DNA from: Pseudoxanthomonas suwonensis
Lineage (GTDB): Bacteria; Pseudomonadota; Gammaproteobacteria; Xanthomonadales; Xanthomonadaceae
Length of the DNA stretch: 56,399 nucleotides
Reading direction: 5' to 3'
Assembly (NCBI GenBank): GCA_030535605.1
Contig: JAUNRQ010000005.1
Coordinates: 1 to 56,399 of the forward strand
Under the pieces are notes generated by a model. The model ran no database searches, was not told the DNA's origin, and was given only the letters and a program-made list of their open reading frames with translations. The position numbers were made by a program, and so were the translations under genes. This document shows, piece after piece, positions 11,256 through 24,504 of this stretch. Within the stretch, counting starts at the first letter, position 1; each line of letters starts with the position of its first letter.

Positions 11256-11975
11256 CTATCGAGGCAGGTCCGGATTGCGATGGATCGGTGATTGCATGCG
11301 CACGATGGCCGTGCTCTGCAACGGAAGCCGGAATTTCGGCCCTCCTGTCACACGCCCACGGTTGACGATGAGTCCGTTTTCGGGGGTCAGCTCGGTGGCC
11401 GGGATGAGATTGTCGGAACGGATCAGCTCCGAAAGCCCGGCCAGTACCCAGTCGACGAACGGAACGATCAACGGATAGTCGTAGGTCACCTTGATCTTGA
11501 GGATATTGGCGTCCTGGACATTGACGCCGCTGCCGCCAACTGTCTGGCTGCGGAAGGCGAGGCTGTCGTTGGGCAGGGCCATGCGCCCGTCGTACTGTCG
11601 CTCCTGATGCTCCTGCCAGGCGGCCTGGGTGGGGCTGATGATCTCGATCCGCGGCCGGTGCAGCAGGAAATCCCCCTCCATCCGCAGCCGCGCCTCGGCC
11701 ACGCCCTCCAGCCCGGAACGGGTGGCATACAGCGGGATCAGTCCCTCCTTCAGGCCGCGCCGCATCTCGGACACGAGCGCGCCGTTCACCGCGCCGGCGC
11801 GTGCCGCTTGCAACGCCGCATAGTCGAGCGTGGTCTTGGCGCGGTACAGCAGCACCATCTGCACGATCCCGAGCACCAGAAACAGCAGGATCGGGGCGAC
11901 GATGAGGAATTCGGTCGCGGACTGGCCCCGCTGTCGATGGAAGAAACGTGTGCGGAGGTATCGACGCGGTGTCAT
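11256..11975 (-). CDS. TadE-like pilus assembly/minor pilin protein, 239 aa
   Basis: This is the last gene of the Tad-like operon; its ATG overlaps the DUF192 stop (ATGA). The N terminus MTPRRYLRTRFFHRQRG is basic, then Gln18-Ser-Ala-Thr-Glu22-Phe begins a hydrophobic helix (LIVAPILLFLVLGIVQMVLL). The cleavage pattern RG|QxxxE, with Glu at mature position 5, is typical of Flp/TadE prepilins. The soluble part is about 200 residues and has no recognised enzyme motif. TadE proteins are thought to form a tip or initiation complex with TadF/TadG-like proteins. Identity as a TadE-family pseudopilin is firm; the specific role is inferred. Confidence 0.85.
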   Translation of the reverse strand: MTPRRYLRTRFFHRQRGQSATEFLIVAPILLFLVLGIVQMVLLYRAKTTLDYAALQAARAGAVNGALVSEMRRGLKEGLIPLYATRSGLEGVAEARLRMEGDFLLHRPRIEIISPTQAAWQEHQERQYDGRMALPNDSLAFRSQTVGGSGVNVQDANILKIKVTYDYPLIVPFVDWVLAGLSELIRSDNLIPATELTPENGLIVNRGRVTGGPKFRLPLQSTAIVRMQSPIHRNPDLPR

Positions 11976-12346
11976 TTGCGCTGCTCCTGCTGAGGTTGCC
12001 AATCCCATTTCGATCCCAGGCGCGGGCCGATGACATCCAGCGCCCCGGCATGGAACTCCACCGTGCTGCGCGCACCGGTGCACGCGGCAAAGCGGATCGG
12101 TGCAAGGTGTTCACGCCAGCCGCAGACGCGGTCGTCGCGGTCCAGGAACACCACGTCCAGCGCATAGCGCATGCCCAGGGTATGCACCGACGCGCAAGGA
12201 CGCAGCCACAGGGCCTGCCGTGCCCGGTCCTGCAACGGCGCTCGACCAAGCAAACCGCGCAACCGCAGCGGCCAGCGATCCGCCAGCCACGCATGCGCCG
12301 CGATGGTCTGCCCGCTCGCCGCGCAACGGATGCTGCCGGTCTTCAC
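11972..12346 (-). CDS. DUF192 family protein, 124 aa
   Basis: It starts at GTG 12346, overlapping the tadC stop (GTGA), and ends overlapping the TadE-like ATG (ATGA), so it is fully embedded in the Tad translational chain. The DUF192/COG1430 core is LWLRPCASVHTLGMRYALDV followed by VFLDRDDRVCGWREHL. The family folds as a small beta-barrel; no activity is established. Unlike many DUF192 proteins it has no signal peptide and would be cytoplasmic. I recall DUF192 genes beside tad genes in other proteobacteria, which suggests an assembly or regulatory role, but nothing in the sequence shows one. Confidence 0.85.
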   Translation of the reverse strand: MKTGSIRCAASGQTIAAHAWLADRWPLRLRGLLGRAPLQDRARQALWLRPCASVHTLGMRYALDVVFLDRDDRVCGWREHLAPIRFAACTGARSTVEFHAGALDVIGPRLGSKWDWQPQQEQRK

Positions 12347-13236
12347 AACAGCCCCTCCTGCAGCATCTTCAGGTAAATGAAGTAGCCGATGAACAGGAAG
12401 ATCAGCGGGAAGAAGAACATCACCAGCGGCAGCAACATCTTGACCGGTGCCTCCAGCGCCAGTTTCTCGGCGCGCAGGAAGCGCTCTTCACGACGCTGCA
12501 TCGCCTGCGAGCGCAGGGTCTCGCTGAGGTTGGCACCGACCTTGTCGGCCTGGATCAGCGCACTGGTGAAGTTGGTGACCTGCGGCACGTCCATGCGCGC
12601 GGCCATCCGCTTGAGCGCTTCGGTACGTGGCAGGCCTGCGCGCAGGTCACGCAGCATGCGCGAGAACTCGTCGCTGATCGGGCCCGCCGGACCTTTCTCC
12701 ACCGCCTTCTCGATGGCGCCGGTGATGTTCAGACCGGCTTCGACCGCCATGGTGATGAAGTCCAGGAACACCGGCAGGTCGCGCACCACCTTGCGCTGGC
12801 GCAGTTTGCGGCGATCGTTGACCCAGATCATCGGGTACAGCCAGCCGAACAGCGCGCCGAACAGCACGCACAGCAACAGCGCTCCGGGCGAGATGCGACC
12901 GAGCATCACCGCGCAGCCCAGCAGCAGCGCAGTGGCGGTCACCGCACTGACCAGCCGCATGCCGTAAAGCTCTTCGGGAGTCAGCAGATAGTCCTGTCCG
13001 GACGACTGCAGCAGCCGATGGGTCTTTTCCAGTTGCGCCGTCTTCAGCCGCGGCGCGATGAAGCGGGTGGCCATCGTCACCAGCGGCCACAGCATCCGCA
13101 ACACCTTGGGCAAGGGATCCTGGTAGCTGCGATCATCCAGCTCGACGTCACGAACGATGCCGCGGGTACCGGCCAGCACGAGGAACACGGCCGCCCCGAC
13201 CAACACCGCCGCCAGCAGGGGAATGATGCCCGCCAT
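12343..13236 (-). CDS. tadC: TadC: type II/IV secretion F-domain platform protein
   Basis: This 297-aa inner-membrane protein is paralogous to TadB. It starts MAGIIPLLAAVLVGAAVFLV, with a 1-nt overlap (TGATG) with the tadB stop. The F domain runs from RDLPVFLDFITMAVEAGLNI to SQAMQRREERFLRAEKLAL and is flanked by TM helices, with a terminal helix pair LPLVMFFFPLIFLFIGYFIYL. With TadB it forms the platform turned by TadA to assemble the pilus. Length and topology are normal. Confidence 0.92.
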   Translation of the reverse strand: MAGIIPLLAAVLVGAAVFLVLAGTRGIVRDVELDDRSYQDPLPKVLRMLWPLVTMATRFIAPRLKTAQLEKTHRLLQSSGQDYLLTPEELYGMRLVSAVTATALLLGCAVMLGRISPGALLLCVLFGALFGWLYPMIWVNDRRKLRQRKVVRDLPVFLDFITMAVEAGLNITGAIEKAVEKGPAGPISDEFSRMLRDLRAGLPRTEALKRMAARMDVPQVTNFTSALIQADKVGANLSETLRSQAMQRREERFLRAEKLALEAPVKMLLPLVMFFFPLIFLFIGYFIYLKMLQEGLL

Positions 13237-14084
13237 CACACGTCGATCGTCATGATCTTGCGGCACAGCCGGTAGCCCAGGTATTCCATGACCACGCACA
13301 ACGTGATCACCACCCAGCCGTGCCAGGAGTTGAACATCGGTTCCATGGTGTCGGCATACACCACCGTCAGGTAGCCGATCAGGAAGACCGGCAACATCGC
13401 CATCACGATGCCCTGCAATCGGCCTTGGGCCGTCAGTGCCTTGACCTTGTTTTCCATGATCAGCCGGCGACGCAGCGTCTCCGCCAGCGTCGACAGGCTC
13501 TCCGCCAGGTTGCCACCGATCTCGCGCGAGATATTGACGGCCGAAACGAACAGCTTGGCGTCGACGATCGGCACCCGCTCGCTGAAGCGCTCCAGCGCCT
13601 CTTCGGTGCGCACGCCCATGTGCTGCTCGCGCAGCACCAGCGCCAGCTCCTGCGCCAGCGGCGCCTGGCCATCCTTGACCAGCACCTCCAGCGCCGGCGC
13701 GAAGCCGACGCCGGCACGCATGCTGCCGGCCAGCATCTGCAGCGCATCCGGGAGCTGTTCCTGGATCTTGTTCAGACGCCGCTGTTTCAACCACACGTAC
13801 AGCTTCTTCGGCAACACCAGCAGGGCCACGACGACGAGGCCGGCAATCAGCAGGCTGCCGGTCATCATCAACACCAGCAGCGGCACCACCAGCATCGCCA
13901 CGCCGTTGAACATGAACAGCTGCGAGGGATCCATGAACAGGAACATGTCGGCCAAGTTGACCCGGGCCTGGCTCATGAAGTTGTCGCGATAGCGGGCCAT
14001 GAACGCCTCGCTCGCGCGCGCCACCAGGAACAGGGCGACCGCAATGCACACGAACATCACCAGCCCGACGACCCATGGCGCCAT
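13236..14084 (-). CDS. tadB: TadB: type II/IV secretion F-domain platform protein
   Basis: This 282-aa protein begins MAPWVVGLVMFVCIAVALFL, with TM helices near the N terminus and around residues 60-90. The F domain spans about 108-230 (QLPDALQMLAGSMRAGVGFA, AVNISREIGGNLAESLSTLA), then come two C-terminal helices. It overlaps the tadA stop by 1 nt (TGATG). It pairs with TadC as the inner-membrane pilus platform. It is shorter than classical TadB proteins but complete at both ends. Confidence 0.92.
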   Translation of the reverse strand: MAPWVVGLVMFVCIAVALFLVARASEAFMARYRDNFMSQARVNLADMFLFMDPSQLFMFNGVAMLVVPLLVLMMTGSLLIAGLVVVALLVLPKKLYVWLKQRRLNKIQEQLPDALQMLAGSMRAGVGFAPALEVLVKDGQAPLAQELALVLREQHMGVRTEEALERFSERVPIVDAKLFVSAVNISREIGGNLAESLSTLAETLRRRLIMENKVKALTAQGRLQGIVMAMLPVFLIGYLTVVYADTMEPMFNSWHGWVVITLCVVMEYLGYRLCRKIMTIDV

Positions 14085-15778
14085 CAGAATGCCCCTGCCT
14101 GGTTCTTGAAGATGCCCAGGTCCACGGCGACGCCGCGCTGCGCGAGCTCCTCGTAGAACTCGGGGACCGCGCCGGTCGCGATGAATCGGCCTTCCACCCG
14201 GCCCTGCGCTCCGTGGTAGGTGCTGGGCTTGAACAGGAACACGTCCTGCATCTGGATGGTGCCGCTTTCCACCCCGGTGATCTCGGTGATGTGGCTGACC
14301 TTGCGCGAACCACAGGGATAGCGACGCTGGTGCACGATCAGGTCCACTGCGGAGGCGATCTGCTCGCGCACCACCACCATCGGCAGTTCCATGCCGGCCA
14401 TCATCACCATCACCTCAAGACGCGACAGCGTTTCGCGCGGGTTGTTGGCGTGAGCGGTGGTCAGCGAACCCTCGTGGCCGGTGTTCATCGCCTGCAGCAT
14501 GTCCAGCGCTTCACCGCCGCGGCATTCGCCCACCACGATGCGATCAGGGCGCATGCGCAGAGCGTTCTTGACCAGGTCGCGGATGGTGATCTGGCCCTTG
14601 CCTTCCATGTTGGCCGGACGCGCTTCCAGCGCGACGAGATTGGGCTGCACCAGCTTCAACTCGGCGGCATCCTCGATGGTGACCACGCGGTCGCCATCGG
14701 GGATGAAGTTGGACAGGATGTTCAACAGGGTGGTCTTGCCGGAGCCGGTACCGCCGGACACCACGATGTTCTTGCGCTCGCGCACGGCGATGGTGAGGAA
14801 CTCCAGCATCTGCGCGTTCAGGGAATCGAACTTCAGCAGGTCCTCGCCAACCAGCTTGCGCTTGGCGAACTTGCGGATGCTGATGCTTGGCCCGCGCAGC
14901 GCCACCGGCGGGATCACCGCGTTGACGCGCGAGCCGTCCTTGAGCCGCGCGTCGACCAGCGGCGAGCTTTCATCGATGCGCCGACCCAGTGGCGTGACGA
15001 TGCGCTCGATCGCGGCCAGCGCGGCCCGCTCGCTGGTGAAGGTCACGTCGGAGGCCTGGATGCGGCCATCGCGCTCGACGAAGATCCGGTCGTGCGCGTT
15101 GACCATGATCTCCGTCACCGTCGCATCGTCGATCAGGTCTTCCAGCGGCCCCAGGCCGATGGCCTCGTCCAGCACTTCCTTGGCCAGCTTGCGCGGATTG
15201 ATGGTCTTCGGCAGGTCGGCGAATTCGCGCGCCAAGATCTCGTTGATCAGGCCGATGGTGGTCTCGCGCAACGAGTCGTCGCTCATGCTGCGCACGTCCA
15301 CCCGCCGCAGGTCCATCTGCCGCACCAGCGCCGCATGGATACGGCTGCGCCAGAGGTTGATCTCTTCCCGCTGCCGGTCGGGAACGGCCAGTTGCGTGGA
15401 CGCGGAGGCGGCTGCCGGGGCAGCGGGCGCTGCGGCCCCGGTGTCCGCCGATGCCGGCACGACGGCCGGGGCGGTTGCGCGGGTGGTGTTGCTGCTGACC
15501 TTGATCCGGTAATCGCCGATCTGGATCAGGTCGGCTTCATCAATGGGGCCGTGCCGACCGCCGACGCTGGTGCCATTGATCCGCACCGGTTCGGTGCCGC
15601 CAAGCGGCATCAGGTACACACCGGACGCGTCCTTGCTGAGGACCGCGTGGCGGGCGGCGATGGTCCAGCCCTGCAGGTTGACCAGGTTGGCGTCGTCGCG
15701 ACCGATGCTGCACTCGGCATGCATGCATTCGATCTGCCGGCTTTCGGCGCCGGGAACGAACACTTCGATCCTGAACAT
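14084..15778 (-). CDS. tadA: TadA/CpaF secretion ATPase with N-terminal FHA domain
   Basis: This 564-aa ATPase powers pilus assembly. Residues 1-95 form a forkhead-associated fold: SIGRDD (Gly26-Arg27), ARHAVL (His44) and INGTSV (Asn68-Gly69). A Pro/Ala/Ser linker (about 100-130) joins it to a standard CpaF-type ATPase with Walker A GGTGSGKT (342-349) and the Walker B region RIVVGECRGGE (413-423), followed by the His box SLTTAHANNPRE. The Ser that normally contacts phosphothreonine in FHA domains (S-x-x-H) is Ala41 here, so binding of phosphopeptides may be lost or altered. The gene overlaps the rcpA stop (TAATG) and the tadB start (TGATG). Confidence 0.95.
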   Translation of the reverse strand: MFRIEVFVPGAESRQIECMHAECSIGRDDANLVNLQGWTIAARHAVLSKDASGVYLMPLGGTEPVRINGTSVGGRHGPIDEADLIQIGDYRIKVSSNTTRATAPAVVPASADTGAAAPAAPAAASASTQLAVPDRQREEINLWRSRIHAALVRQMDLRRVDVRSMSDDSLRETTIGLINEILAREFADLPKTINPRKLAKEVLDEAIGLGPLEDLIDDATVTEIMVNAHDRIFVERDGRIQASDVTFTSERAALAAIERIVTPLGRRIDESSPLVDARLKDGSRVNAVIPPVALRGPSISIRKFAKRKLVGEDLLKFDSLNAQMLEFLTIAVRERKNIVVSGGTGSGKTTLLNILSNFIPDGDRVVTIEDAAELKLVQPNLVALEARPANMEGKGQITIRDLVKNALRMRPDRIVVGECRGGEALDMLQAMNTGHEGSLTTAHANNPRETLSRLEVMVMMAGMELPMVVVREQIASAVDLIVHQRRYPCGSRKVSHITEITGVESGTIQMQDVFLFKPSTYHGAQGRVEGRFIATGAVPEFYEELAQRGVAVDLGIFKNQAGAF

Positions 15779-17310
15779 TACTGCGGCCCCCGCAACGCAC
15801 CGCCGTGCCGCCCGCGGTTGGACTGCTCCAGGTCATGGCGGATCTGCTCGCCGCGCTGCAGGCCTTCGATGTTCTCCGGGGTGCCCGGGCCGACCACGCG
15901 CGGGGTCACGAACACCACCATCTCGGTGCGGTTGGCGCGGAAGCCGTCGGAGCGGAACAGCCGGCCGATGATGGGGATGTCGCCCAGGAACGGAAACTTG
16001 TCGGCCGAGCGCGCGGCGTTGGTGTCCACCAGCCCGGAAATCACGATGGTCTCGCCCTTCTGCACGTTCAGCTGCGACTCGGTGCGGCGGGTGAGCAAGC
16101 CGGGCACGCCCATCACCGCGACCGAAGGGTCCAGGCGGCTGACTTCGGCCAGCACTTCCGTGGAGATTTCGCCGCGCTGGTTGACCACCGGCAGGATGTT
16201 CAGCTTGATGCCGTATTCCTTGTATTCGATGGTGGTCTGGCCGAACGGGCCGGGTACCGGCACCGGCACTTCGCCGCCGGCGAGGAACCTGGCCGATTCG
16301 CCGCTCTTGGTGGCCAGCTGAGGCTCGGCCAGCACCCATGCCTTGCCTTGGCTCATCAGCAGGTTGATGCTGGAGGCGATCGACGTGGCGATGCCGAAAT
16401 GCGCCTGGGTACCGGGCAGCCGCACCGGCAGGCTGTCGCGAATGTCCTCGAACGCGGGGTCGTTGCGTGGCAGCGTGCGGAAGTAGGGATTGCTGGTGGT
16501 GTCCTTGATGAGCGCGCCCAGCGGACCGCTGATGGCGGTGTCCCAGCGGATCCCGAGCTCTTCCAGCGCATTGCGGTTGAATTCCATGATCTGCACGTCC
16601 ATCCGCACCATCGGCTTCATCGCCACAGGGTCGGGCGTCCCCAGGTTGACGACCTGCGGATACAGCTTGTGCAGTTGCTCGATGCGGCTGACCAGGTCCT
16701 GGTCCATGTCCCTGCCGGACACCACCACGTTGGCGCCGATGGCGGCCACGGTCACCCGTTCGTCGTCCAGCAGTTGCCGCACTGTCCGCGCCAGCTGCGT
16801 GGCGCTGCCCGTGGAGATGCTGACGGTCGCGGTCAGCTGGCGGCCATCGGCCATCCACAGGTGGATGTTGGTCTCGCCCGGCTGCGTGCCCAGCAAGACC
16901 ACCTCGCTGTGGCCGACGGTATGCACCGCCAGCACGTCGCCGTTGCCGATGGCGATGCGACGGATCGCCCCGGCCACCCGGTGCACGCGCGCCTCGCCGG
17001 CGTAGAGGTCGACATGCTGCGGCAGCGGCGCGGCCGGTGAGGCAAATGCCTCGCCCGCCAGCGCGCGCGGGCTCTGCGCCGGGATTTCCATGATGGCCGG
17101 CTGCCCGGCCTCGGCGGCCGGTTCCGCCAGTGCCCGCCGGGGGGCCTGGGCCGGCGCAGCTTCGCTGGCCGACGCGGCATCCTCGGCCAGTGGCGGTGCG
17201 GCGGCGGCAACACCCGGCAGCGATAGCGCCAGCAGTGCGGCGAAGGCAAGCACGCGGCGCGCGCGCATGGGCACGGACGCCGGGACGGCGCGACGGATCG
17301 GATGCTTCAT
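15778..17310 (-). CDS. rcpA: RcpA/CpaC outer-membrane secretin of the Tad pilus
   Basis: This 510-aa protein has a signal peptide (VLAFAALLALSLPGVAAAA), an Ala/Pro-rich linker, and a pilus N-terminal domain (VDLYAGEARVHRVAGAIRRI ... VLLGTQPGETNIHLWMADG). A short BON-like segment follows, then the secretin core (PVPVPGPFGQTTIEYKEYGI, GETIVISGLVD, FPFLGDIPIIGRLFRS, VFVTPRVV). It forms the outer-membrane channel. The ATG at 17310 is chosen because AGGAG lies 6 nt before it; an in-frame TTG at 17316 overlaps the cpaB stop. The 3' end overlaps tadA by 1 nt. Confidence 0.94.
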   Translation of the reverse strand: MKHPIRRAVPASVPMRARRVLAFAALLALSLPGVAAAAPPLAEDAASASEAAPAQAPRRALAEPAAEAGQPAIMEIPAQSPRALAGEAFASPAAPLPQHVDLYAGEARVHRVAGAIRRIAIGNGDVLAVHTVGHSEVVLLGTQPGETNIHLWMADGRQLTATVSISTGSATQLARTVRQLLDDERVTVAAIGANVVVSGRDMDQDLVSRIEQLHKLYPQVVNLGTPDPVAMKPMVRMDVQIMEFNRNALEELGIRWDTAISGPLGALIKDTTSNPYFRTLPRNDPAFEDIRDSLPVRLPGTQAHFGIATSIASSINLLMSQGKAWVLAEPQLATKSGESARFLAGGEVPVPVPGPFGQTTIEYKEYGIKLNILPVVNQRGEISTEVLAEVSRLDPSVAVMGVPGLLTRRTESQLNVQKGETIVISGLVDTNAARSADKFPFLGDIPIIGRLFRSDGFRANRTEMVVFVTPRVVGPGTPENIEGLQRGEQIRHDLEQSNRGRHGGALRGPQ

Positions 17311-17312
17311 GT

Positions 17313-18140
17313 TCAACTCCTGGAACTGCCGACGATGAATTCGATGCTGCGGGCACGACGGCGGGGGCCGGACAGCCCCGTCGATACGCCATCGCCCAGC
17401 GAGCGCAGCAGTTCCCGTTCCGTCATTCCGGTGGCGGTCCCCGGGTAGTCGTCATCCAGCCGCCGCAACACCACCCGCAGGCTTCCGGCCTTGTCCGCCA
17501 CCGCCAACTGCTTGGCCTGGTGCTGGTCCAGTTCCAGCGTGAGCGTGGAATAGCCCTGCTCGTCCGAATCACTGCCGTAGATGGCGTCCTGCACCTGCAC
17601 GCCGGTGGCCAGCACGCGGATCATCTGCAGCAGCGGAAACAGGCGCGCGCCCTGTGGTGCCGCGCCGCTGCTGTCGTTGTCCTTGAGGAAGAAGATGTCG
17701 ATCCAGTCCCCCGGCGCGACCATTCCGGAGATCGAATTGTTCTCGTCCACCGTGAGGTTGTAGGCGATCTTTCCGGAGGGGATCACCGCCGAGAACGTTT
17801 CGTGCAGCGGCACCAGCGCGCCGCCGCTGATCGGCACGCCGGCGCGGATGTCGGCGCGCAGCACGCGGCCGAGGTAGTCGCCGTAGTTGTCCGGGGTCAG
17901 CGCGTTGCTGGGCACCAGGTCGGCCGGCACTTCGCGGATCGCGAGCATCTGCTCGCCCAGCATGGTTCCGGCGGGGATGTCGGCGGTCGGCACGGTGACC
18001 GCCGCGGTGAGGGTGTCGTCGCGACTGCGCTCGTCGACGGTGCGCTGCACGTAGGCCATCGTCAGTACCGCGGCGATGCCGGCCAACACCACGGCGCCGA
18101 TGATGTACAGCAGGTTCTGGCTGATCTTGGGCTTCTGCAT
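17313..18140 (-). CDS. cpaB: CpaB/RcpC pilus assembly protein (SAF domain)
   Basis: This 275-aa protein has one N-terminal TM helix (LLYIIGAVVLAGIAAVLTM) and a periplasmic part. The SAF domain is clear at about residues 45-110 (TVPTADIPAGTMLGEQMLAI, YLGRVLRADIRAGVPISGGA), followed by the RcpC region (VAPGDWIDIFFLKDNDSS). RcpC/CpaB is associated with the secretin and pilus stability. It lies 18 nt after the mini-pilin stop. The stop overlaps a TTG codon just ahead of rcpA. Confidence 0.93.
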   Translation of the reverse strand: MQKPKISQNLLYIIGAVVLAGIAAVLTMAYVQRTVDERSRDDTLTAAVTVPTADIPAGTMLGEQMLAIREVPADLVPSNALTPDNYGDYLGRVLRADIRAGVPISGGALVPLHETFSAVIPSGKIAYNLTVDENNSISGMVAPGDWIDIFFLKDNDSSGAAPQGARLFPLLQMIRVLATGVQVQDAIYGSDSDEQGYSTLTLELDQHQAKQLAVADKAGSLRVVLRRLDDDYPGTATGMTERELLRSLGDGVSTGLSGPRRRARSIEFIVGSSRS

Positions 18141-18353: not shown

Positions 18354-19040
18354 CTACATCTGGATGACCATGACCGAGGTGTTGCCGGCGTTGCGACTGG
18401 CGTTGATGACGATGCGGTCGCGCCCTTTCTCGTAGTAGGCGACGCATGCCGGCTGCGAGGCGCTGCAGGCTGGCGAGTTCGACGTGCGGACGTAGCCGCG
18501 GCCCGACAACGCGCGCTGGTAGAACGCCTGGTTCTGCTGCGGCGAATGGCGGTTGACCATGTGCAGGGTGCGCGTCTGGCGCGGTGTGTCGCGATGGATG
18601 ATGTCCTCCATCACCCGCGTGCCGGACGGACGCTGGAACCCGGCACCGGGCTGCGCCCGCCGACGGTCGCCCAGCGCCTCGCTGATGCCGATCTGGCCCT
18701 GCGTGCCGGTGCCGCGCGGGCGCAGTTCGACGGTGATGTAGAAATCGCCGCGGGCATGGCCGAGGATGGTCCTGCCCGCCACCACGTCACGGGCCATGCG
18801 GCCGCGCCAGTGCTCACGGTAGAAGGCCTCGACCTCCGCCAGCGGCAACGGCGACGCGAAGCGGCTGGTGCGCATGTTCACGCCGTTGTAGACCATGTGT
18901 CGCGACACCCACTCGCCGCGGGCATCACCCGGCAGCGGCACGTCCGGCCAGTCCTGCGCGCAGGCACCTCCCGCGGCCAGCAAGGCCGACAGGGCCAGCA
19001 GCAGCGGCGCGGCGCGGCGCGGGCACATGGAGGTCGTCAT
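18354..19040 (-). CDS. Exported protein of unknown function inside the Tad-like operon, 228 aa
   Basis: Its ATG overlaps the stop of the upstream TadE-like gene (ATGA). A signal peptide (RRAAPLLLALSALLAAGG...) ends in ACAQ-D, predicting a free periplasmic protein. The mature region opens with PLPGDARGEWVSRHMVYNGV and LPLAEVEAFYREHWRG, a pattern I have seen in xanthomonad secretion-associated proteins but cannot name. There is one Cys pair near the C terminus (PACSASQPACVAYYEKG). No enzyme motif is visible. Position makes a pilus accessory or periplasmic assembly role likely. Confidence 0.8.
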   Translation of the reverse strand: MTTSMCPRRAAPLLLALSALLAAGGACAQDWPDVPLPGDARGEWVSRHMVYNGVNMRTSRFASPLPLAEVEAFYREHWRGRMARDVVAGRTILGHARGDFYITVELRPRGTGTQGQIGISEALGDRRRAQPGAGFQRPSGTRVMEDIIHRDTPRQTRTLHMVNRHSPQQNQAFYQRALSGRGYVRTSNSPACSASQPACVAYYEKGRDRIVINASRNAGNTSVMVIQM

Positions 19041-19868: not shown

Positions 19869-20693
19869 TCACTGCTTCAATGAAAACGCCGAGCCGGGCA
19901 CCTGCGTGCCGGTCACCAGGCGTACGGTCCGGATACGACAACTGGCCCCGTCGGCCGGCTCCTGTGCCAACGGCAGACGATCGTTGAACACGCCGACATC
20001 GACATTGCACACGTCACTGGGCAACTGCGAGAAACCGGGCACCTTGGCCGCGTTCCACATGCAGATGCGCAAGCCCGGCACCGTCTGCCGGCGCCACCAG
20101 GTGCATGGCTGGCCCGCCACGTTGCCCTCGCCGTCGCGCTGCCATCCGATCGCCTCGGCGACGGTGAGGTCCTCGTCGACGGCTTCGCCGGCCTCGGGCC
20201 AGACGTCTTCCGGCGGCTGTTCCTGCCGCTGCACCGTGCCGTCCTCGTGGACGCTGTACACCGAGCGATCCGGCCCGTCGTAGTACTCGTGGACCGACTC
20301 GGTGAAGGTGAACAGGCACAGCGTGCCGATGCCTTCGGTCGGACGCTGCGTCGCCCATTCGGTGCCGCGCACCAGCCGGCGCTTGCCGTCAATGGCGACT
20401 TCCACGCGGCGCTTGCCAAGCAGCTCCACCTGTGCGGGCGTGAGGGCTTCGATCGGCCAGCCGGCGGCCGCGCAGATCTCCAGCGCGTCGTCGTAGTCCT
20501 TGCGCAGGTGGTTTTCACCCGCAACCAGCCGCTCGATCATCAGTTCCGCGGCGACGGCGGTCCCGTGCGAGCCGCCGGCAGCCGGTTCGCTACCGACCGC
20601 GCCGACGCCGGATTCCTCCGCGACCGCCGGCGCCCGCGAGCAGGCCATGCACAGGGCCAGCAGCAGCACTGGCGGCAGTGCCCGGCCGTTCAC
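19869..20693 (-). CDS. Putative lipoprotein/exported protein of the Tad-like operon, 274 aa
   Basis: It starts at GTG 20693, overlapping the TadG-like stop (GTGA). The leader MNGRALPPVLLLALCMACSRA is a lipoprotein-type signal with two candidate Cys residues, neither in a perfect lipobox. The mature region has helical (HLRKDYDDALEICAAAGWPI), Lys/Arg-rich (LLGKRRVEVAIDGKRRLV) and Cys-containing (GQPCTWWRRQ, GLRICMWN, SDVCNVDVG, GASCRIRTV) stretches; five or six Cys suggest disulfides. I do not recognise a family. Its place among pilin-like genes suggests an envelope accessory factor. Confidence 0.75.
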   Translation of the reverse strand: MNGRALPPVLLLALCMACSRAPAVAEESGVGAVGSEPAAGGSHGTAVAAELMIERLVAGENHLRKDYDDALEICAAAGWPIEALTPAQVELLGKRRVEVAIDGKRRLVRGTEWATQRPTEGIGTLCLFTFTESVHEYYDGPDRSVYSVHEDGTVQRQEQPPEDVWPEAGEAVDEDLTVAEAIGWQRDGEGNVAGQPCTWWRRQTVPGLRICMWNAAKVPGFSQLPSDVCNVDVGVFNDRLPLAQEPADGASCRIRTVRLVTGTQVPGSAFSLKQ

Positions 20694-22123
20694 TGGAGGG
20701 TCCCCAGCGTGGTGCGTTCGACCATGGGCGTTTCCACCAGTCGCGCCTGCCAGTACGGGCTGAACAGGCTGCCCATTTCCAGCTTGCGGTCCTCGCGGTT
20801 CCAAAGGTAGCGAGTGAAGCGCCGGTTCTGGTGCGGGCGGTTGAAGTACACCTGTGCGCTGGCAAGGGCACGGATGTGGTCACCGCCGAAGTCGTCTTGC
20901 ATTTCCAGCCGCCCGGCGGCCATGTCCTGCTGCACCGCACTGGTGCGCGCGTTGCTGCCGGCCGACTGCGCCTCCACCGTGAAGATCGGCCCGCCTTCGC
21001 GGTCGCTGGTCGGGCGCTTCGCGTAACGCGGCTTGATGTCGTGGAACGTGTGCGCCAGGCCGTTGGTGTAGGTGGAGAAATAGGCATCCTGCTTGCGGCC
21101 ACGCACGAGTCGCCCGCCCGGGTCGCCTTCCACCAGGCGCCCGGCGGGACTGCGGCGGTTGACGCCACCATACGCGGCATGCCGCCGCCCGTCGTACTCG
21201 GACTGCCAGCCGTTGCCGTTGTTGATGCCCGGGAAGAAGCGCGGCTGTTGCGAACCGCCGACGGCCTGCGCGCCGCCCCAGCCAACGGGGATCTTGACCG
21301 CGCCGAACAGGATGTTGACGTCGAACGTGTCCACCGCTGCCCAACGGTCGTAGTCGACCAGATCGGTGCCGCCGCGGGCCTGGACCACGAACCAGGAATC
21401 GCGGCGGTTGCGGCTGAACTTGTCCCGCGACTCCATCACCAGGTTGCGATACCGCTCGCCACCCTCGCTGCGCCGGCCACGACCGCGCGGGACGTTCAAG
21501 GTGTCGAGATAGGTGCTGCGCGCGCTGACCGCCTGACCCGCCAGCACGCCGGTGGCCAGTGGTCGCATGCCTGCGCCGGGCGAGTTGTCGGCCACCACGC
21601 GGCTGGCCAGGTCGGTGACGTTGATGCCGCTGGTTTCGATCATCGCGCGCGCGGTTGCCGCGTACGCGGTGTTCGCCACGTCCAGTACGCCGATATAGGC
21701 AACGCTGCCCGTGCGAAGTCCGGCACGGACGGCCTGCAGACCGCTGTTGGCCGCTTCCATCGCCGCGGCGATCACCTGCCCGGCATAGGGAATGAACCGG
21801 ACGACCTTGGAAATGTTGCTGCTGGTGACGTTGATCTGCGTCATCCAGGAATTCAGGCTGACCGCTTGGGCGATCGCCACTTCGTTGGCAATGCGTCCGC
21901 GATTCATGTACGCCGCGCCGTTCCATGCGCGCGCGTACTCGGCGGCGACGCTGTAGGCGGCGGCATCGGCGGCGTTCACCAGCTCGACCTTCTTGTTGAC
22001 CACCTGGCCGGTGTTGAACACCACCAGCACGCCGGCGGTCAGGGCAAGCAGCAGCAGAAGGACGAAGACCAGGCTCTGCCCGGCCTGCGACTGCCGGCGC
22101 GAACGGGGATGCGGGATCGACAT
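20690..22123 (-). CDS. TadG-like pilus assembly protein, 477 aa
   Basis: It begins MSIPHPRSRRQSQAG, followed by the hydrophobic helix QSLVFVLLLLLALTAGVLVV and then FNTGQVVNKKVELVNAADAA, the Asn-Ala-Ala-Asp-Ala signature of TadG N-terminal (Tad) domains. The remaining 400 residues are soluble and probably periplasmic. Unlike the other pilin-like proteins of the operon, there is no Glu at position 5 after the Gly-Gln site, so it is probably an anchored, unprocessed protein. ATG 22123 is preferred (GGAG 7 nt upstream); ATG 22129 and an ATG at 22147 are in frame. It is the second gene of the operon. Confidence 0.85.
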   Translation of the reverse strand: MSIPHPRSRRQSQAGQSLVFVLLLLLALTAGVLVVFNTGQVVNKKVELVNAADAAAYSVAAEYARAWNGAAYMNRGRIANEVAIAQAVSLNSWMTQINVTSSNISKVVRFIPYAGQVIAAAMEAANSGLQAVRAGLRTGSVAYIGVLDVANTAYAATARAMIETSGINVTDLASRVVADNSPGAGMRPLATGVLAGQAVSARSTYLDTLNVPRGRGRRSEGGERYRNLVMESRDKFSRNRRDSWFVVQARGGTDLVDYDRWAAVDTFDVNILFGAVKIPVGWGGAQAVGGSQQPRFFPGINNGNGWQSEYDGRRHAAYGGVNRRSPAGRLVEGDPGGRLVRGRKQDAYFSTYTNGLAHTFHDIKPRYAKRPTSDREGGPIFTVEAQSAGSNARTSAVQQDMAAGRLEMQDDFGGDHIRALASAQVYFNRPHQNRRFTRYLWNREDRKLEMGSLFSPYWQARLVETPMVERTTLGTLQ

Positions 22124-22204
22124 GGCCATTCTCCGGGGGAACTCCAAGAGGCGATGCGAGGCGGGCTACGTCCTGGGCGTCGTCCGGGGTTCACGACACC
22201 GATC

Positions 22205-22239: not shown

Positions 22240-22518
22240 TTACGGCGAACGATTGCTTTCTTCGTAGTTCGACAGGTTGCCCTGCTTGGCCGCCTGCGCG
22301 TCCGCCTTGGTCTTGCCGGCAGTGACCTGGCTGCGGTTGGAGCTGTTCTGACCGGCCAGTTCCGACGTCATCACGGCCATCTGGCCACGGACCGTCTTGC
22401 CGAAGGCGGTGTACACGCCGATCGCGGCAATGGCGATCAGGGCGACGATGATGATGTATTCGGTCATGCCCTGGCCGCGCTGGCGGCGGCCGCCGATGAT
22501 GCGGTTGTTGTGCTTCAT
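22240..22518 (-). CDS. Flp-type pilin, probable major subunit, 92 aa
   Basis: The ATG at 22518 has GAGGAG 6 nt upstream, the strongest ribosome site in the operon. The precursor MKHNNRIIGGRRQRG is followed by Gln16-Gly-Met-Thr-Glu20-Tyr and the helix IIIVALIAIAAIGVYTAFGK, so cleavage after Gly15 leaves Glu at position 5. The mature tail is polar (NSSNRSQVTAGKTKADAQAA). First position, strong ribosome site, small size and the following hairpin all fit a major pilin. No prepilin peptidase gene lies nearby; PilD or a TadV encoded elsewhere would be needed. Confidence 0.85.
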   Translation of the reverse strand: MKHNNRIIGGRRQRGQGMTEYIIIVALIAIAAIGVYTAFGKTVRGQMAVMTSELAGQNSSNRSQVTAGKTKADAQAAKQGNLSNYEESNRSP

Positions 22519-23157
22519 GGAGAACTCCTCGAGTGGTTGGTTTGGGTGCCTGCTGGGCGCTGCATCGCAGCAGCGGCGAAGCTGCCCCAGCGCCGATGGC
22601 ACTTCAATCACTGCCCCCTGAATACCCCCGCGTATCGACGAAGCTGAATCATGAAAATCAATGACTTGCGTTATTTCTTGTTCAGCTTGCGTTTATAATG
22701 TGACAGTTTTTGTCAGTTCCGGACCTGTAGTGTCCGTGAAACATTCTGCTTTTCGGAAACCTGAATGGCCGTCCCGGTGCTCCCGAACCCTCATGACGGT
22801 CACGAGCGTTGCGTCGAACGGGGCGGCTGGGCGGACGGCGAGGTCAGGCCTGGATGGCCGTACGAGTGCCGGCATACGGATCGGCTCGATAGGCCCGAGC
22901 CGTCGCCGCCAGTTCCGGCCGACCACGGCGCCTCTCGGGAACACCCTCGCGATGGCGCTGGAGACATGCAGGCGCAAGCCGTCCGGACCGCGCCGGCAAC
23001 GACGCTCGGCAGACTCGCAGGGGCAGCCACGGGCATGCCCGTTGTTCCCATGCGACACGTCCCATGCGATACGGGCCGCGCGTCGCGACAACGCAGCCCC
23101 GGATGTCGCGCACGACGCGGCCGGCAGGCGGCCTGCCCGCCTGCCGGTGCGCGGCGG
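22519..23157. promoter_or_regulatory. 639-nt non-coding region upstream of the Tad-like operon
   Basis: I see no supportable gene here. Bases 22620-22760 are strikingly AT-rich for this genome. They hold the inverted repeats TGACA-N5-TGTCA (22701-22715) and CGGAC-N7-GTCCG (22720-22736), which look like operators. A perfect TATAAT at 22694-22699 faces the plus strand, away from the pilin gene, with only a poor -35 (TTATTT, 17-nt spacer). On the minus strand I find TTGATT (in CATTGATTTTC) but no convincing -10, so the pilin promoter is not resolved. Bases 22760-23120 are GC-rich and without recognisable coding on either strand. Confidence 0.5.
23122..23146 (-). terminator. Hairpin after the OmpA-like gene
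   Basis: This is a perfect 10-bp inverted repeat, CGGCAGGCGG / CCGCCTGCCG, with a 5-nt loop, beginning 11 nt after the stop of the OmpA-like gene. There is no T run on either side. It probably ends or stabilises that transcript. Confidence 0.5.
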
Positions 23158-24177
23158 CTACTGCTTGACCAGTTCCACCCGCCGGTTGCGCGCTCGACCG
23201 GCTTCGGTGTCGTTGTCCGCAACCGGGCGGGTATCGCCATGGCCGGCGGCGCTCAGGCGCCCGGCGTCGATGCCGGCGCCCTGCAGCGCGGCGACGACCG
23301 ACCGCGCGCGGCCTTCCGACAGCGTGCGGTTGTGCGCGGGGTTGCCGGTGTTGTCGGTATGCCCGTCAACCGCCAGCCGCAATGCCGGATCCTGCCGCAA
23401 CAGCGCCACGACCTGTTCGATCTGGGGCATCGAGTCCGCCAGGATCTCGGTGCTGTCGGTGGCAAAGTTGACCTGCAGCGCGACCTTGCCGCTGGCATCC
23501 AGCTGCTGCTTGAGCTCGGATGCCGGCAGCAGCGCGGCGGTGATTGCCGGTGCGGCGCGTTCGGTGACGAGGATGTTGTAGGCGCGTTCGGTGTGGTCGG
23601 ACACCACCTGCACCCAGATCTGCCGGTCGGCCTGCCGTACCAGCCAGGTGGAAAGCGGGTTGCTGGCCACCCCCTGCAGGCCCGATTCCAGTCGCGCCAA
23701 CGCGCCGTCCTCGCTGATCTGCTGGAACGCCGCGGCAGGCAGCCGCGAGGCGTTGACCTTCACGCCCTGCAGCCTGCCGATCACCGCATCCATGTTCGCC
23801 ACGACGTTGGCGAAGCCGCAGTCGGCAGCGCCCTCGGCGGTGATGTACGAGGCCACGGTCGGCCCCTCGACCCATTCGATCCGGTCGCCGGTCCAGTACG
23901 GTGCCCTGGCATGCCGCGGAGCGGTACCGTCGAAGCGGCAGCCTTCGGCCAGCGTCACGAAGGGGAAGTCGCCCAATGGTGCCGTCGACACCGGCGCGGC
24001 GTCGATGTCGAAGGCGACCGGACCGGCGGGCGGTGCAACCTCGGCCGGTTCACCACCCGGGGCCGAATCGCCGGGCGTGGCGTCACTGGCCGATGGCGCA
24101 GGCGGCGTGTCCGTCGGCTGGCAGGCCGACAGCAACGTGGCAATGATGACGATGGCAAGCGGACGCTGGATGAGCAT
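23158..24177 (-). CDS. OmpA-family peptidoglycan-binding lipoprotein, 339 aa
   Basis: ATG 24177 is preceded by AAGGAG at 9 nt. MLIQRPLAIVIIATLLSAC is a lipoprotein leader with Cys19. A Pro/Ala/Ser linker follows, then an uncharacterised middle domain (FPFVTLAEGCRFDGTAP...). The C-terminal OmpA-like domain (about 225-339) has VNFATDSTEI, VDGHTDNTGN and LSEGRARSVV, the motifs that bind diaminopimelate in peptidoglycan. OmpA-type proteins often accompany tad loci and may anchor the apparatus. It is transcribed in the same direction as the pilus operon but is separated from it by 639 nt and a hairpin. Confidence 0.88.
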   Translation of the reverse strand: MLIQRPLAIVIIATLLSACQPTDTPPAPSASDATPGDSAPGGEPAEVAPPAGPVAFDIDAAPVSTAPLGDFPFVTLAEGCRFDGTAPRHARAPYWTGDRIEWVEGPTVASYITAEGAADCGFANVVANMDAVIGRLQGVKVNASRLPAAAFQQISEDGALARLESGLQGVASNPLSTWLVRQADRQIWVQVVSDHTERAYNILVTERAAPAITAALLPASELKQQLDASGKVALQVNFATDSTEILADSMPQIEQVVALLRQDPALRLAVDGHTDNTGNPAHNRTLSEGRARSVVAALQGAGIDAGRLSAAGHGDTRPVADNDTEAGRARNRRVELVKQ

Positions 24178-24504
24178 TCCTGGAGTCTCCTTGACTGGTG
24201 GGGGGAGTCGGCTGCCGGCCGCACGGGACGCTGCGCGCACCTCACGCGACCGCACGGGCTGCATCGGCCGGATGTCCACACGCGGAAGGGCGTCGGGCGG
24301 CACCGGCCCGGTGCACCCGGGCAGATTGTCACCCACGTTCGGCAACAGATCGCAGCGGCCGTTGGCGGCAATTCACGACAGTCGGATGTCAAGCGCACCT
24401 GCGAGCCGGCACGGTGCCGCTCGACTCGGCACCGGCCCTGCAACGCCGTGCACGGCAGCGCCCTGCCCCGCTCATGGGACAGGCACGCATGCCTCGGACA
24501 CGCC
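24178..24504. other. Intergenic region upstream of the OmpA-like gene
   Basis: These 327 nt hold no supportable gene. A minus-strand TTGACA box (24388-24393) has no matching -10 at 16-18 nt. A 6-bp inverted repeat, ACACGC-N4-GCGTGT (24498-24513), spans the ptrB-like stop codon. Confidence 0.4.

Follow-up and report, generated by a model that had tools for sequence, protein, structure and literature searches.

Tad locus and motor protein

The window, that is, the entire 56,399-nucleotide stretch of Pseudoxanthomonas suwonensis DNA analysed here, carries a Tad pilus operon on the minus strand, in the order candidate Flp pilin, TadG-like protein, CpaB, CpaC, CpaF, TadB, TadC, DUF192 protein and TadE. 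The candidate Flp pilin gene (22240..22611) is syntenic with Flp genes elsewhere, its Flp_Fap score of 19.5 bits lying below the cut-off of 32.2. It is accompanied by the genes for the TadG-like protein (20690..22147; PF13400, 36.7 bits), CpaB/RcpC (17313..18140; PF16976 and PF08666), and the CpaC secretin (15778..17316; PF00263, 139 bits). The last of these lies directly upstream of cpaF and holds the slot occupied by cpaE in most FHA-free loci. On the other side of cpaF stand the platform proteins TadB (13236..14084; PF00482, 58.5 bits) and TadC (12343..13236; PF00482, 72.5 bits), the DUF192 protein (11972..12346; PF02643, 36.4 bits), conserved among Tad loci of this type (cluster c10, 25 loci), and a TadE-like pseudopilin (11256..12083; PF07811, 46.1 bits). 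Two further proteins of the region have no Pfam match: a conserved one of about 230 aa (18354-19040), found between the TadE-like gene and cpaB in 30 loci, and another (19869-20804) present in nine compared loci, all from Lysobacteraceae. Additionally, an OmpA-family protein (23158-24345) adjoins the operon, as it does at other loci of the family.

The motor gene cpaF/tadA (14084..15778, minus strand) encodes a 564-aa ATPase with an N-terminal FHA domain, as established by its open reading frame, Pfam matches to FHA and T2SSE, and a full-length AlphaFold2 model. A preliminary description had proposed this fusion without naming a strand; the plus-strand frame over the same interval is a shadow ORF. 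The FHA domain comprises residues 1-98 (15485..15778, minus strand). PF00498 matches residues 24-88 with 32.7 bits against a cut-off of 20.7, and residues 1-105 are modelled as all beta with a pLDDT of 92.1. The top solved structures matching the model are all FHA domains, namely EmbR (Z 16.1), Ki67 (15.6), and FhaA (15.5), and the phosphopeptide-bound FHA domain of DgcB is also among the best structural matches (Z 14.9). Searched by sequence against the PDB, the region gave no significant match, the best being the FHA domain of DgcB (6hc1) at E 0.84. Profile and predicted fold thus both agree with the FHA assignment made earlier.

In the full-length model, the FHA domain is followed by disorder at residues 99-132, helices at 135-207, and the ATPase thereafter. 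The proposed Pro/Ala linker to a complete CpaF ATPase was likewise recovered: the linker spans residues 99-134 (15377..15484, minus strand; pLDDT below 50 at 99-132), and the three-helix bundle and ATPase core span residues 135-564 (14087..15376, minus strand), with PF00437 (T2SSE) matching residues 208-506 at 211 bits. The Walker A motif GGTGSGKTT and the other catalytic columns are invariant among 39 relatives. With intact Walker motifs, and encoded together with TadB, TadC, CpaB, CpaC, and pilin-like genes, the protein is a Tad motor. Its N-terminal FHA domain and disordered linker ahead of the helix bundle place it in class III as defined in PMC12019362.

That 2025 cryo-EM paper describes class III CpaF as FHA-IDR-3HB-NTD-CAD, for example in Achromobacter xylosoxidans (E3HIW0), with the same domain order and Tad role as in the window protein (PMC12019362). 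An FHA-fused Tad motor is also known as KilF of Myxococcus xanthus, whose system includes many FHA proteins (PMC8460266). The fusion, previously put forward as a novelty, is therefore already published (PMC12019362, PMC8460266). What goes beyond published class III is a two-way split of the phosphothreonine pocket and the absence of CpaE, neither of which turned up in the open-access literature searched.

Loss of phosphothreonine pocket residues

Class III FHA domains are said to bind phosphothreonine peptides (PMC12019362). The window domain keeps Gly26 and Arg27 of the beta3-beta4 loop and the structural His44, and all six residues singled out in the preliminary description (G26, R27, A41, H44, N68, and G69) are as given there. 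Nevertheless, two residues that define phosphothreonine binding are changed. Ala41 (codon 15656..15658, minus strand) aligns with the phosphate-contacting Ser of the DgcB domain 6hc1, and Glu63 (codon 15590..15592, minus strand) aligns with the pocket Asn of its STNGT motif. The hit behind this alignment has an E of only 0.84, but its register can be trusted because the IGR, HA, and NG motifs are common to both domains, and the family alignment agrees. The altered pocket proposed earlier is hence right with respect to Ala41 and incomplete with respect to Glu63. Asn68-Gly69, which had been read as part of the FHA order, is present but represents a second Asn-Gly motif (Asn68 codon 15575..15577, minus strand), the position of the pocket Asn being that of Glu63.

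For comparison, FHA-CpaFs were gathered from Lysobacteraceae, the wider class, and named genomes, the contig search using a full-length alignment. In an unrooted tree built from the ATPase columns alone by a quick method, 50 of them, almost all beta- or gammaproteobacterial, form one clade (SH-aLRT 99). Both Ser41 and Asn63 are missing in 44 of these 50 and both present in one, whereas 18 of the 23 FHA-CpaFs outside the clade keep both. Position 41 is Ser in 22/23 outside and Ala or Gly in 44/50 inside; position 63 is Asn in 18/23 outside and 2/50 inside. In each of the 32 Lysobacteraceae members inspected, position 41 is Ala or Gly, position 63 is not Asn, and position 38 is Trp. The double pocket loss is a trait of the beta/gammaproteobacterial clade. 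The pocket state changes about four times on the tree, and Fisher values for the pocket and kinase contrasts, which ignore relatedness, are descriptive only. The sole clade member with Ser41 and Asn63 (L136) has them alongside Trp38 and Gly-Pro, as an intermediate or a reversal.

New residues accompany the loss. Trp38 (codon 15665..15667, minus strand), adjoining the former phosphate site, is found in 45/50 clade members, the commonest residue outside being Pro; Asn68 is found in 49/50 against 9/23 outside; and Gly77-Pro78 (codons 15545..15550, minus strand) in 48/50 and 49/50, respectively. Gly26 and His44 are invariant, Arg or Lys27 is kept in 43/50 clade members, and position 43 varies freely. 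The conserved FHA residues fall in predicted loops of the model near the old ligand site. Decay of a functionless domain was rejected, as Trp38, Asn68, and Gly77-Pro78 are nearly invariant. Since the pocket change is an old one whose replacement residues have been kept, a different ligand is a likelier explanation than decay. Owing to the retention of Arg or Lys27, weak phosphate binding is possible; phosphopeptide binding by a non-canonical FHA domain is reported for Pellino (PMC11884936).

The clade departs from the published description of class III in having lost both pocket residues. A KilF relative from Citreicoccus keeps the canonical VSKYH and STNGT, unlike the window protein.

The preliminary description had suggested that pilus assembly is tied to a Ser/Thr kinase. 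For the window protein this is not supported: the pocket residues are gone, and no Hanks-type kinase or second FHA protein is encoded within 12 kb of cpaF, the three Hanks kinases of the genome all lying on other contigs. At least one such kinase occurs in 53/55 FHA-CpaF genomes. The genomes G418 (one contig, 100% complete) and G695 (99%), both near-complete and with the clade FHA type, show no Hanks kinase match genome-wide, which also speaks against the tie for this FHA type. A linked kinase was found at 3/38 clade loci versus 8/12 canonical-pocket loci with enough flank; at the latter it lies upstream of the pilin gene. For a second FHA protein the counts are 1/38 versus 11/13. Few independent events underlie these associations, because the pocket changed only about four times; moreover, the kinase and PP2C profiles, like that for CpaE, were built from a few seeds, and gene neighbourhoods are cut by contig ends. 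The kinase tie fits the other FHA-CpaF branch, in which the pocket is kept and the locus also encodes a kinase and another FHA protein.

The three clade exceptions have their kinases 8-9 kb from cpaF, near the pilin end (L105 93-983 with L212 10906-12300; L112 with L221; L133 291-1802), and two of the three loci also have a Tll0287-like/HAMP sensor gene.

Mutual exclusion of FHA-CpaF and CpaE/TadZ

The MinD-like ATPase CpaE/TadZ, whose dimers ring CpaF in situ, is described as ubiquitous in Tad systems (PMC13170226). It is regarded as responsible for proper localisation. In the sampled loci, FHA-CpaF and CpaE/TadZ exclude each other. None of 70 FHA-CpaF loci (0/69 plus L289) yielded CpaE, against 69 of 77 FHA-free loci. 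Of the first 42 of the latter, 27 have it as an adjacent gene and 10 as a fusion to the CpaF N-terminus, the fusion being confirmed by Pfam; among 35 further loci it is adjacent in 32, including 18/18 from Lysobacteraceae. The search profile represents the MinD-like part, an iterated version having drifted to receiver domains. Genome-wide, a full-length CpaE is missing from 35 of 40 FHA-CpaF genomes, which yield nothing beyond weak MinD/ParA or receiver matches, and the remaining five have a full-length CpaE beside a second, FHA-free Tad locus. The window genome, whose assembly is 82% complete, is among those without full-length CpaE, and 34 more FHA-CpaF genomes agree.

The exclusion spans several phyla. 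The tree implies about three changes each for FHA and for CpaE, in opposite directions, giving only one or two independent pairs, so that a replacement of CpaE is not statistically separable from one ancient coincidence. CpaE/TadZ resembles the FHA domain in being an accessory module of the same motor and differs from it in consisting of receiver-like and MinD-like ATPase domains with no FHA fold.

In Bdellovibrionota, Omnitrophota, and others, a MinD/ParA-type (CpaE-like) ATPase is fused to the CpaF N-terminus, at the site of the FHA domain in class III. Such fusions are seen in L151 (9239-11395) and L160 (4925-7084), and also in L150, L152, L153, L155, L158, L165, L171, and L186.

A proposed dock for the Tad motor

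Taken together, we lean towards the window FHA domain being a phosphorylation-independent dock for the Tad motor that stands in for CpaE. An FHA domain would be present on every subunit of the motor (six by homology), held by the flexible linker, and would bind a partner within the Tad machine that is fixed and unphosphorylated, such as the TadB/TadC platform, CpaB or the membrane assembly. Such docking may recruit or position the motor, which in other Tad systems is presumably the job of the CpaE ring. The constitutive protein-binding module suggested in the preliminary description fits better than the kinase tie, and that interpretation as a whole finds partial support.

Phosphorylation-independent FHA domains have precedents in other secretion machines. 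Those of EssC in type VIIb secretion are without phosphothreonine residues (PMC4925161), EssC differing in that it is a membrane ATPase of the FtsK type carrying its FHA domains in tandem, a motor unrelated to CpaF. The cytoplasmic FHA domains of the type III secretion protein SctD (YscD/PscD/MxiG) mostly bind no phosphopeptide (PMC4045390), although one report describes such binding for Shigella SctD. SctD is alike as a non-canonical FHA protein of a secretion machine, and the structural matches of the window domain include PscD and YscD; it differs in being a membrane ring protein and not a motor. All 40 CpaF FHA domains scanned match PF16697 at E ≤0.01, the window score lying under the cut-off of that profile.

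A phospho-reader of an unusual type, using Arg27 and Arg43 to recognise a partner phosphorylated by a kinase encoded elsewhere, could explain the invariant Gly26 and His44 and the common Arg or Lys27, and nearly all FHA-CpaF genomes, that of the window included, have Hanks kinases to supply the mark. We nonetheless consider it improbable, as Ser and Asn are both lost across the clade, position 43 is free to vary, the kinase link of canonical loci has mostly gone, and no Hanks kinase match came from two near-complete genomes that carry the clade FHA type. A purely structural role, in which the domain would stabilise class III motors at the level of the subunit or the hexamer and have no outside partner, is somewhat easier to entertain, since EssC lacking its FHA domains is undetected in cells, the domains being needed for a stable ATPase (PMC4925161). 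Still, a 36-residue disordered tether makes a poor ring stabiliser, the conserved loop residues near the old ligand site are what a binding face would be expected to show, and a structural role offers no account of the missing CpaE; this role is accordingly judged unlikely.

The last alternative deserves the most weight of the three, while being itself rather doubtful: FHA and CpaE would be functionally unrelated, one ancestral Tad locus having by chance gained the one and lost the other. The few transitions on the tree, with their one or two independent pairs, count in its favour. Against it, nearly all the other sampled loci have CpaE, which is also described as ubiquitous, the exclusion is seen in several phyla, and FHA domains sit at the same N-terminal site on CpaF as the CpaE-like ones.

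The docking role in place of CpaE can be set in a wider scheme, which we offer tentatively. There may be two kinds of Tad machine, one with a CpaE/TadZ ring and the other with an FHA domain replacing CpaE altogether. The ancestral FHA-CpaF might have been a phosphorylation-licensed dock with its own kinase, later made constitutive in Beta- and Gammaproteobacteria, where Trp38, Asn68, and Gly77-Pro78 would form the new face. This canonical-first direction is only suggested, because the tree is unrooted.

Many Beta- and Gammaproteobacteria have Tad loci that are without CpaE and always carry an FHA domain on the motor, which offers a direct test of the job of CpaE. Moreover, the assumption that class III implies phosphothreonine binding is to be corrected, as most of the proteobacterial members sampled probably do not bind it. 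FHA-CpaFs accompanied by kinase and second FHA genes probably do, so that a phosphorylation-controlled Tad pilus becomes testable there. A candidate for such a pilus is L129 (3341-18234), where a Hanks kinase, a PP2C phosphatase, and an FHA protein, all three confirmed by Pfam, are found together with a canonical-pocket FHA-CpaF. PP2C linkage was also tried as a group marker; it occurs at few loci and fails to separate the groups. In genome G536 (L214 1756-3321), a PP2C phosphatase gene adjoins that of a small FHA protein; the pair lies downstream of a clade FHA-CpaF, at a distance of about 11 kb.
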